Source of the DNA: Candidatus Kapaibacterium sp.
GTDB taxonomy: Bacteria > Bacteroidota > Ignavibacteria > Kapaibacteriales > WFXC01
DNA length: 57,591 nt
Direction of reading: 5' to 3'
Assembly (NCBI GenBank): GCA_026996895.1
Contig: JALWJX010000040.1
Coordinates: forward strand, 1-57,591
Position numbers and translations under genes: made by a program. Under the pieces are notes generated by a model that made no database searches, was not told the DNA's origin, and saw only the letters and a list, made by a program, of their open reading frames with translations. This document shows positions 32,141-34,783 of the stretch, piece by piece (the first letter of the stretch is position 1; each line of letters starts with the position of its first letter).

Positions 32141-32614
32141 ATGGAAAAGCAGCCGGCACCCTTATTTGAAGGCGTGACGGATACGGGAGAAAAAATCAGT
32201 CTGGAACAGTTTCGCGGAAAGTGGGTGATTCTATACTTCTATCCCCGCGATAACACGCCGGGCTGTACCGCCGAAGCCTTGGATTTCCGAAATGCAGCGG
32301 AAGATTTTGCAAAACACAACGCAGTGATTCTGGGTGTCAGCCCTGATCCCATCAACCGGCATCAAAAATTCAAGCAGAAATATCAACTGCCCTTTGTACT
32401 GATCAGCGACGAAGATCATTCCATCGCTGAACAATACGGCGTATGGAAGGAAAAAAAGCTGTATGGCAAAGTTTTTCCGGGTATTGAACGAAGCACGTTC
32501 ATTATCGATCCCGATGGGAACATCGTTGCAGCATTTCGGAAGGTAAAGGTGAAAGGGCACGTGCAGACTGTTTTAGAAACGTTGCAACAATTGCAACAAC
32601 AAACGCAGAATTAA
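32141..32614 (+). CDS. bcp: Peroxiredoxin, BCP/PrxQ family
   Basis: A 157-residue thiol peroxidase that reduces peroxides using thioredoxin. The peroxidatic Cys is in YPRDNTPGCTAEALDFRNAA. In many BCP proteins a resolving Cys occurs five residues later (C-x4-C); here that position is Leu, and no other Cys occurs in the protein, so this is a 1-Cys-type BCP that would need an external thiol for resolution. Other conserved parts: PFVLISDEDHSIAEQYGVW and STFIIDPDGNIV. It lies 15 bases after dnaX and 11 before tatD, in one transcript. Confidence 0.9.
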   Translation: MEKQPAPLFEGVTDTGEKISLEQFRGKWVILYFYPRDNTPGCTAEALDFRNAAEDFAKHNAVILGVSPDPINRHQKFKQKYQLPFVLISDEDHSIAEQYGVWKEKKLYGKVFPGIERSTFIIDPDGNIVAAFRKVKVKGHVQTVLETLQQLQQQTQN

Positions 32615-32625
32615 GGAGACAGAAG

Positions 32626-34053
32626 ATGGAACAAACCTGGAATACAGCACCATTCGTTGATTCGCATTGTCACCTGGACGTTGAACAGTTCGAGCCAGAC
32701 CGCCCACAGGTGATCCATCGGGCACGGGAAGCAGGGATCCGTGCCATTGTCATTCCGGCTATCGAACCAGCAACCTTCGATCATCTGCAATCAGTGGTGC
32801 TTTCAGATCCAATGCTTTTCTGGGGCGTTGGTATCCATCCCCACAGTGTGGGAACGTATGAGGAAGAATCTCTGGAAGTGGTGGAATCCTGGATCCAGAA
32901 AGGCGAGCGTGTCGTTGCCATTGGGGAAATTGGCCTGGACTACTACTACGACTTTTCACCCAGAGACAAACAAAAAGCCTTTTTCCGTGACCAAATTCGG
33001 CTGGCAAAGCAATACCAGCTTCCCGTTATCATTCACAACCGGGAAGCGGATGAAGACATATTCCGGATTGTCGAGCAGGAACAGGATGGAACGCTTCGAG
33101 GCGTTTTCCACTGCTTTTCAGGTTCACCGGCGTTAGCTGAACGGGCACTGAAACTGCAAATGTGCGTTTCATTCACCGGGATGATTACCTTCCCGAAAGT
33201 ACGGCTTCAGGAAACGGTGCAGGCGGTTCCGCTGGAACAGATGATGATCGAAACAGACAGTCCATATCTAACGCCCGTGCCCTATCGTGGAAAACGGAAT
33301 GAACCCTCTCGACTCCCCCTCATCGCAGCGAAAATCGCAGAGTGGAAGAAGACAACTATTGAGGAAGTTGCAGAAAAGACAACGCAAACGGCAATGCGAC
33401 TGTTTCGATTAGCGATTGCGACACTTGCTGTTTTTCTTCTGGCATTTCTGCTTCCATTTCGGGCAACGGCGCAGCAGGACACGGTACGCGGCTTTGCCCA
33501 TCCTTTTCAGAAATTCATTGGCGGCGGCGGCATCATCGGAATGATGACCTTCGTCGAAACCCCTGATAGCGGGCGGGATCGCTCATACGAAGGACTGCCA
33601 GCGTTCGGCGGCGTGCTTAACTGGTTTTTTACCGACCATCTCTTCCTTTCCGCTTCCTACGTCATCGCGAAAAATACCAAGGTACAGCGATTTCAGGCAA
33701 ATCCGAATTATCATCACGTGCTGGACTTTGCAGTCAATTACACGCCAATTCCGTACAACCGGATGGCTTTTTACTTTTCCCTTGGAATGTCCTATTTTTA
33801 CAACAATCTCAACAACCGGCGCAAGGAAAACTTTTTAGGTTCCAACTTCGCCATTGGTCTCTACGGCAACATTCAGACTCCTTATGGAGTCATTGTTCCA
33901 TCAGCCGAATGGCGAGTCAGCTTTATGCTGGGCGACCGCATTCTGGATTACGATCCGAATCCCAACGATCAAAACCCGGAGCGGATCCGGCAAAATGTTC
34001 CGTACTTTACATCGATCCCCCGGTTCTTGATCCAGTTCTTTCCAGAATGGTAG
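32626..34053 (+). CDS. tatD: TatD-family metal-dependent hydrolase running in frame into an outer-membrane beta-barrel
   Basis: Residues 1 to about 262 are a complete TatD-type DNase: metal ligands His14 and His16 (DSHCHLD), Glu101 (GEIGLD), His137 (IIHNRE), His162 (FHCFSG) and Asp211 (IETDSPYL). TatD proteins normally end around here with a helix of the type EEVAEKTTQNAxRLF. In this gene there is no stop. The same frame continues with a hydrophobic segment and AxA-type site ending FRATA (residue 282), then about 190 residues that look like a small outer-membrane barrel (aromatic-rich alternating strands, final residues IQFFPEW). Met257 begins a perfect signal peptide, so the downstream part may be made from an internal start (listed separately). 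A true fusion, an in-frame overlap of two genes, or a lost stop are all possible. Confidence 0.85.
   Translation: MEQTWNTAPFVDSHCHLDVEQFEPDRPQVIHRAREAGIRAIVIPAIEPATFDHLQSVVLSDPMLFWGVGIHPHSVGTYEEESLEVVESWIQKGERVVAIGEIGLDYYYDFSPRDKQKAFFRDQIRLAKQYQLPVIIHNREADEDIFRIVEQEQDGTLRGVFHCFSGSPALAERALKLQMCVSFTGMITFPKVRLQETVQAVPLEQMMIETDSPYLTPVPYRGKRNEPSRLPLIAAKIAEWKKTTIEEVAEKTTQTAMRLFRLAIATLAVFLLAFLLPFRATAQQDTVRGFAHPFQKFIGGGGIIGMMTFVETPDSGRDRSYEGLPAFGGVLNWFFTDHLFLSASYVIAKNTKVQRFQANPNYHHVLDFAVNYTPIPYNRMAFYFSLGMSYFYNNLNNRRKENFLGSNFAIGLYGNIQTPYGVIVPSAEWRVSFMLGDRILDYDPNPNDQNPERIRQNVPYFTSIPRFLIQFFPEW
33394..34053 (+). CDS. Possible separate outer-membrane protein started inside tatD (same frame)
   Basis: Starting at the ATG at 33394 gives a 219-residue protein that opens MRLFRLAIATLAVFLLAF, a basic n-region and long hydrophobic core, with likely cleavage after Ala-Thr-Ala before QQD. 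The mature part contains Gly-rich turns and alternating aromatic strands (e.g. FYFSLGMSYFYNNL) and ends in Trp, as outer-membrane barrels do. The six residues MRLFRL would serve both as the C-terminal helix of TatD and the n-region of the signal peptide. No strong Shine-Dalgarno precedes the ATG, although Bacteroidota often lack one. I recognise no specific family for the barrel. Confidence 0.5.
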   Translation: MRLFRLAIATLAVFLLAFLLPFRATAQQDTVRGFAHPFQKFIGGGGIIGMMTFVETPDSGRDRSYEGLPAFGGVLNWFFTDHLFLSASYVIAKNTKVQRFQANPNYHHVLDFAVNYTPIPYNRMAFYFSLGMSYFYNNLNNRRKENFLGSNFAIGLYGNIQTPYGVIVPSAEWRVSFMLGDRILDYDPNPNDQNPERIRQNVPYFTSIPRFLIQFFPEW

Positions 34054-34153: not shown

Positions 34154-34783
34154 ATGGGAAATATCACGGTCGTCAATCACGCGCTCATCCAGCGGGATCT
34201 GTCCATTGTACGAGATAAAAACACCCCACTACCATCGTTTCGGGCAGCGCTCCACCGAATCGCAGTAGGGTTGGTGTACGAAGCAACCCGCAACCTGCTG
34301 CTGGAAGAAACGTCGATCGAAACACCGCTGGAACCAACCACAGGATATCGAGTGGTAAACCGGGTCGTTTTTGTGCCCATCCTTCGGGCAGGGCTCAGCT
34401 TCTTAAACGCCGCCCTGAGCATTGTTCCGGAAGCCACGGTCGGTTTTATTGGTATTCGGCGAGATGAACAGACCTTAGAACCGTACGAATACCACTACCA
34501 TGTTCCACCAGCGGAGAATGAGCATACACTGGCGATTATTTTAGACCCGATGATCGCAACTGGCGGCAGTATGGTTGCAGCGCTCAATCGCCTTAGTATC
34601 GATGGGTATCAGCACTGTGCCGTTGTGGCTTTAATTGCAGCACCAGAAGGAATTGAAAAAGTCCATTCGTACCATCCAACCGTGCCCATCTTCTTAGCCG
34701 CCTTAGACCGGCAACTCAATGATTCCGGCTACATCCTGCCGGGTTTAGGAGATGCAGGTGATCGGTTTTGTGCTACGACATAA
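34154..34783 (+). CDS. upp: Uracil phosphoribosyltransferase
   Basis: Salvages uracil to UMP with PRPP. The 209-residue protein shows VFVPILRAGLSFLNAAL, the PRPP-binding loop LDPMIATGGSMVAAL and the uracil-binding end GYILPGLGDAGDRFCATT. Length is typical. The last 11 bases overlap the 3' end of the convergent CbpM-like gene. About 100 bases separate it from the TatD/barrel gene. Confidence 0.95.
   Translation: MGNITVVNHALIQRDLSIVRDKNTPLPSFRAALHRIAVGLVYEATRNLLLEETSIETPLEPTTGYRVVNRVVFVPILRAGLSFLNAALSIVPEATVGFIGIRRDEQTLEPYEYHYHVPPAENEHTLAIILDPMIATGGSMVAALNRLSIDGYQHCAVVALIAAPEGIEKVHSYHPTVPIFLAALDRQLNDSGYILPGLGDAGDRFCATT

Follow-up and report, generated by a model that had tools for sequence, protein, structure and literature searches.

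The window analysed here is the whole stretch of 57,591 nucleotides at positions 1 to 57,591 of the Candidatus Kapaibacterium sp. contig JALWJX010000040.1, and the locus described lies between an AhpC/TSA peroxiredoxin gene and a uracil phosphoribosyltransferase gene. The translation of positions 32626 to 34053 (+) gives 475 stop-free residues, in agreement with the single uninterrupted frame of 475 codons that was claimed in an earlier note on this DNA. The features of the locus are listed here in order of position.

32141..32614, +, AhpC/TSA peroxiredoxin gene (Bcp-like), directly upstream (Pfam AhpC-TSA, E 3e-41)
32613..32618, +, AAGGAG, Shine-Dalgarno (SD) motif of the tatD start, read from the sequence (duplex energy -8.2)
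32626..34053, stop included, +, whole frame of TatD, signal peptide and barrel (orthologous frame in 109/123 genomes of the order)
32656..33408, +, TatD DNase domain, residues 11-261 (Pfam, NCBIfam, AlphaFold2 model)
33374..33393, +, A-rich leader before ATG257 (11/20 bases A)
33376..33378, +, codon 251, AAG in the window, site of an internal ATG in 65/124 fused relatives
33394..33396, +, ATG257, candidate internal start in the genus of the window, the only ATG, GTG or TTG in codons 236-272
33394..33471, +, putative signal peptide MRLFRL...ATA, residues 257-282, read from the sequence, overlapping the residues of the last TatD helix
33472..34050, +, mature barrel, residues 283-475, eight long strands predicted (AlphaFold2, pLDDT 91.3; structural matches NspA, OmpW and OmpA)
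34154..34783, +, uracil phosphoribosyltransferase gene, downstream (Pfam UPRTase, E 7.6e-61)

TatD proteins are usually about 260 residues long and cytosolic. The frame continues for 214 residues beyond this, which is a departure from the usual size and not from the family. The Pfam TatD_DNase domain (PF01026) spans residues 11-261 (E 3.2e-80, 269.6 bits against a cut-off of 27) and TIGR00010 spans residues 10-261 (261.4 bits against a cut-off of 206). The residues H14, H16, E101, H137, H162 and D211, which we take to be the TatD metal ligands, are invariant in 62/62 aligned fused proteins, in line with the claim that all ligands are present. Within the genus of the window both halves are under purifying selection (dN/dS about 0.03 each), with a dN of 0.0085 and a dS of 0.28 for TatD and a dN of 0.011 and a dS of 0.37 for the barrel. 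The purifying selection and the invariant ligands together suggest that the TatD enzyme is probably active. Four genomes (G003, G019, G026 and G032), other genomes of family f2 and some of family f9 carry, away from this locus, a further and distant TatD-like frame (about 220-260 residues, 25-31% identity), which was not seen in the genome of the window.

The AlphaFold2 model of the whole protein runs from TatD, with its last helix at residues 245-260, through a low-confidence hydrophobic helix at 262-275 and a low-confidence linker into the barrel. Modelled alone, the barrel reaches a mean pLDDT of 91.3 and folds into eight long strands, resembling NspA (Z 16.6), OmpW (Z 16.2) and the OmpA domain (Z 15.8), and it is therefore predicted to have an eight-stranded outer-membrane barrel fold. 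The C-terminal residue is Trp, and Phe or Trp is found at this position in 43/62 listed orthologues; both the eight-strand model and the terminal Trp agree with the small barrel ending in Trp that had been proposed. Sequence profiles recognise this part less easily. Pfam OMP_b-brl matches 26/63 family members at E up to 0.1, with a best value of 4.9e-7; the window's own barrel matches none of the Pfam families at E up to 0.1 and has no NCBIfam match, and the barrel profile gave no convincing E-value against solved structures. The search of the phylum for barrel relatives outside the order and the families f13 and f19 gave nine matches (E 5.5e-6 to 0.0096).

The junction between the two parts carries the features of a signal peptide. 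The pattern [AVSTLIGC]x[AS]Q is present in the junction stretch of 112/124 fused proteins, counted by sequence pattern only, and in the window it reads ATA followed by Gln. An earlier count, which gave Gln at +1 in 106/124, rested on a score biased towards Gln, and the plain pattern took its place. Gln is at +1 in 13/30 frames picked out crudely as signal-peptide-like from 286 kb of the window's own genome. A Gln after the cut is described in one report as the rule for Bacteroidetes signal peptidase I substrates, and as not uniform across the FCB group (PMC5837995). The proposal that the last TatD residues double as the n-region of the signal peptide fits the sequences throughout the clade.

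The full-length profile matches 120/123 genomes of the order (Kapaibacteria), and 109/123 have one stop-free match across both parts, four of these being single-contig genomes. The two named matches to the frame are Candidatus Kapaibacterium metagenome assemblies. Among the 14 remaining genomes, the matches of seven end at contig ends (G053, G058, G226, G234, G242, G252 and G262), G257 has its match in two pieces of one frame, G228 and G282 show a distant paralogue only, and G248, G255 and G265 have no match. The last one, G060 (70% complete), is the only truly split genome among the 123. Its TatD (L058) stops at residue 262 and is flanked by the usual two neighbours, so that the AhpC/TSA and the UPRTase genes are conserved next to an unfused tatD as well, and its barrel (L064) is found on a different contig, where it has a separate start and signal peptide. 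Either half is therefore able to stand alone.

The earlier note had asked for stops between the parts in orthologues and had named, as a refutation, relatives with separate genes and an artefact in the window. This refutation fails: 109/123 genomes have no stop between the parts and one, G060, has them truly separated, and two other genomes of the window's genus carry the same frame with 99% and 97% identity. Since these two genomes and the 109/123 share the stop-free frame, a sequencing or assembly artefact is an unlikely origin of the frame in the window, and we rejected it.

Of 197 genomes sampled from the class, 41 have a match to the barrel profile, in 41/41 at the TatD frame only. Two further families with the fused frame, f13 and f19, were found in this sample, for which five genomes each were read. 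The f19 barrel is larger and barely recognisable, with E-values of 6.5e-4 and 1.3e-5 in two genomes; in this family (L071-L074, L105) a long Gln/Glu/Arg-rich linker separates the signal peptide from the barrel. Elsewhere in the class, families have TatD either by itself or joined to a radical SAM domain. In the tree of TatD domains, the 125 rows of the order, f13 and f19, with the split G060 included, form one side of a branch, and the fused or unfused character changes once (SH-aLRT 90). The position of the fused TatDs on one side of a branch fits one old fusion event, and the suggestion that the TatD stop was lost holds as such an old event. The counts of fused genes given here leave out L002 and L003 (copies of G002 and G001), L189 (a fragment), L058 (from the split genome) and L188, L190, L191 and L192 (without a TatD match of the required length).

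Two proteins from this frame, the second from an internal ATG at 33394, had been suggested as one possibility, the other being a single protein with the nuclease tethered to an export signal. The comparison within the clade favours internal initiation, at other codons in most lineages. In the first reading of about 60 genomes, Met257 was rare, and an ATG at codon 251, preceded by GAGG at a distance of about eight bases, was seen in many genes. This hypothesis of a start at codon 251 was set from those genomes and then passed a test on the remaining ones as a hold-out, whereas the starts at codons 243, 245 and 250 were found later on all rows, without a hold-out of their own. An in-frame ATG lies in codons 241-259, within or just before the last TatD helix, in 115/124 fused genes, in 33% (0.326) of 1364 control windows and in 5/30 unfused TatDs; the stretch was picked after the data were seen, and the controls are windows of the same size in the same genes and 30 unfused TatDs, radical SAM fusions included. 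An ATG led by an SD motif is found there in 82/124 fused genes, in 2.3% of the 1364 windows of the same genes and in 0/30 unfused TatDs. When GTG and TTG are allowed as starts, the values are 85/124, 9% and 1/30. The motif set was GAGG, GGAG and AGGA at first, and AAGG was added for the count of 82/124 and later ones.

The start codon is at 243, 245, 250 or 251, depending on the lineage, the SD motif shifts along with it, and the motif is spelled in synonymous codons. An SD motif precedes ATG251 in 44/65 genes compared with 27/510 other internal in-frame ATGs; in the hold-out alone, the values are 31/38 and, for the remaining in-frame ATGs of these genes, 10/222. In the hold-out, codon 247 ends in G in 33/37 rows with ATG251 (8.3 expected from the same genes) and in 6/10 rows without it (5.2 expected). 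Family f2 has ATG243 in 18/21 genes, with an SD motif before the ATG in 18/18 that is built from GCG (16/16) and GAG (18/18) codons, and in the remaining 3/21 codon 245 is an ATG or GTG preceded by an SD motif. Five f3 genomes have an SD-led ATG at codon 243, as in f2.

The families differ in how often an SD-led ATG is found. The fraction is high in f2 (20/21), f3 (47/49), f8 (3/3) and f10 (1/1), is lower in f9 (5/13), f4 (3/8), f13 (2/5) and f7 (1/9), and is zero in f1 (0/3), f5 (0/6), f6 (0/1) and f19 (0/5). No ATG, GTG or TTG at all is present in codons 241-259 of 3/124 fused rows, and f5 has no ATG there in 6/6. The absent motif in several families may reflect how those families start their genes, because the starts of f19 (2/21), f13 (0/12), f7 (2/14) and f4 (2/11) show little SD use, with f1, the genus of the window, as the exception; SD use is above background in f1 (60/162), f2 (8/33), f3 (29/94) and f9 (7/33). 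These gene starts were picked by simple rules, so that the counts are crude and the samples small. With the same crude choice of start, the f3 gene's own tatD start has an SD motif in 3/48 cases compared with 47/49 for the internal start. One source states that most mRNAs of Bacteroidia and Chlorobia are without an SD motif (PMC9976891).

These sequence comparisons, namely the unbroken and conserved frame, the internal ATG with an SD motif in biased synonymous codons and the conserved cleavage pattern, lead us to favour a nested in-frame gene with two products and one stop, whose internal start would be used in most of the clade, and we give this reading a probability of about 0.65. We infer from them the use of the internal start, the existence of both products, the export, the cleavage and the fate of the full-length form. 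Ribosomes starting at 32626 would make the full-length protein of TatD, signal peptide and barrel whenever tatD is translated, because no stop separates the parts. Other ribosomes would begin at the in-frame ATG that lies within the last TatD helix or slightly ahead of it, giving a pre-barrel with an ordinary N-terminal signal peptide. This pre-barrel would leave the cytoplasm through Sec, signal peptidase I would cleave it before the Gln, and the barrel would be inserted into the outer membrane. The end of TatD would thereby serve in three roles, as a helix of the enzyme, as an internal ribosome-binding site and as the n-region of the signal peptide. Cleavage at this site would also be the most likely fate of the full-length form, and the TatD part would then keep a hydrophobic tail that anchors it at the inner membrane. 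More tentatively, one frame in the order and the two further families could yield an internally started barrel, a precursor-derived barrel and an inner-membrane-anchored TatD, in a ratio set by the internal ribosome-binding site in synonymous codons, the position of which would have jumped at least several times with the export signal in place.

All of the barrel could instead come from a single precursor, whose internal hydrophobic segment is read as a signal sequence once it emerges after TatD and is cut by signal peptidase I before the Gln, so that the barrel goes to the outer membrane and TatD stays tail-anchored in the inner membrane, with no internal start being used. The stop-free frame means that such a precursor must be made, and the invariant TatD ligands and the purifying selection on the two halves (dN/dS about 0.03 each) also speak for it. 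The cleavage pattern is kept in 50/59 rows without ATG251 (62/65 with it), and the hydrophobicity of the h-region does not differ between these two sets of rows and thus gives no hint of a special targeting route. As the sole route we consider this unlikely, since it leaves the excess of ATGs, the SD motif and the synonymous bias linked to the ATG unexplained. Where the start codons are missing, in the three rows without any and in f5 without an ATG, the barrel may come from the precursor alone; this route may apply to f5 and some further cases, or operate alongside the internal start.

It has been proposed that ribosomes pause at SD-like motifs within coding DNA, and the motif of the fused genes lies shortly upstream of the hydrophobic segment, so that it might be a pause site before the signal sequence emerges, with the ATG as an ordinary methionine codon. 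The motif, however, goes with the ATG: the codon-243 motif is present in 23/34 rows with the ATG and in 2/90 without it, and the codon-251 motif in 51/65 and 13/59, respectively. It also moves with the start codon, and the SD-led ATG is found in 0/30 unfused TatDs, which makes a pause site improbable. Shared ancestry alone, with inherited codons and methionines mimicking selection, has in its favour that the relatives are not independent and that the independent-pairs test had 5 and 6 pairs only. Third positions elsewhere in the same genes, however, do not stay G: when all ATG251 rows are taken together, G at the third position is more frequent in codon 247 (0.91) than in any other of the 44 comparable columns (next 0.47, median 0.22). 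Counted by genus, GAG at codon 247 reaches 0.91 over 27 genera with ATG251 against a background of 0.23, and 0.36 against 0.46 over 10 genera without it. The hold-out agrees with this codon bias, and we regard ancestry alone as very improbable. The local RNA folding at the junction is weak and shows no contrast tied to the ATG.

For the window itself, the internal start of the favoured nested-gene reading would likely be the ATG257 at 33394. Met257 is present in 5/124 fused genes, namely those of the window's genus and of two species of another family, and most lineages have their in-frame ATG 6 to 14 codons upstream of codon 257. As a conserved internal start it was therefore rejected, and the suggested second start at 33394 is retained only as a lineage-specific one. 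An SD motif at ATG257 is found in 0/3 genes of the genus, though the genus uses the motif elsewhere (60/162 crude starts). The one support for ATG257 is its A-rich leader, a context described for Bacteroidota starts that have no SD motif; with 55% A it ranks within the highest 1.6% of the gene's codons. The two sister genomes have 60% and 55% A (genus range, top 0.8-2.0% of codons). In the window's leader, positions -6, -12 and -13 are A and position -3 is G; one study describes A at -3, -6, -12 and -13 as promoting translation initiation in Flavobacterium johnsoniae (PMC6847099). Among all fused rows that lack an SD motif, junction ATGs score higher for A than control ATGs (1.54 compared with 0.94, p 5e-4). 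This A excess is partly present in fused rows without an ATG at the junction, so that the leader counts as support and not as proof.

In-frame internal starts are described for two-polypeptide phage endolysins (PMC9430671) and for bacterial N-terminal proteoforms such as those of CheA, IF2, CcmM and SsaQ (PMC11005335). As far as these sources describe them, such genes have one frame, two starts and one stop, as the Kapaibacteria frame would. Their second product is a truncated form of the first, whereas the Kapaibacteria short form would be a different protein with its own export signal, destined for another compartment, and unlike in those genes, the arrangement is kept across an order with a shifting start position. 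The Escherichia coli TatD is described as a cytoplasmic Mg-dependent nuclease (PMC4176340). The fused proteins share with TatD DNases the same domain, the full profile coverage and the invariant ligands, but known TatDs end at about 260 residues, whereas every full-length fused copy runs on into a signal sequence and a barrel. The barrels of the NspA, OmpW and OmpA type have the same fold by model comparison (Z 15.8-16.6), and here the gene for such a barrel would be nested in tatD. The cytochrome b/c1 of Bradyrhizobium fbcH is made as one precursor that is cut at an internal signal sequence. One frame, two proteins and an internal signal sequence would be common to both cases, but the fbcH products are both inner-membrane electron-transfer proteins, unlike the TatD and barrel pair, and we know of no internal start in fbcH.

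In-frame internal starts and TatD fusions are thus already known, and what appears new is an outer-membrane protein nested stop-free in the gene of a cytosolic enzyme. In the part of the literature covered by our search, we came across no account of an outer-membrane protein nested in frame, and without a stop, within the gene of a cytosolic enzyme, nor of TatD in 'Kapabacteria'. If the nested-gene reading is true, this is a conserved case in which two unrelated genes for two compartments have been merged in one stop-free frame and are still separately translated. The locus would then be a natural test of how cells handle a large folded cytosolic enzyme that ends in an export signal, of how a coding sequence can retain a ribosome-binding site and shift its position, and of SD function in relatives within the Bacteroidota. 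Annotation pipelines would give one TatD of 475 residues and overlook the outer-membrane protein in every such genome.

A fusion at the same TatD end is described by TIGR04038 (tatD_link_rSAM) and occurs in other families of the same class. Its partner is a cytosolic radical SAM domain, in contrast to the barrel, and an SD-led ATG at the junction is found in 0/30 of the set of unfused and radical SAM TatDs. Fusions of this kind are found in L079-L095 and L102-L104, with TIGR04038 confirmed for L080, and the TatD C-terminus looks like a favoured fusion point.
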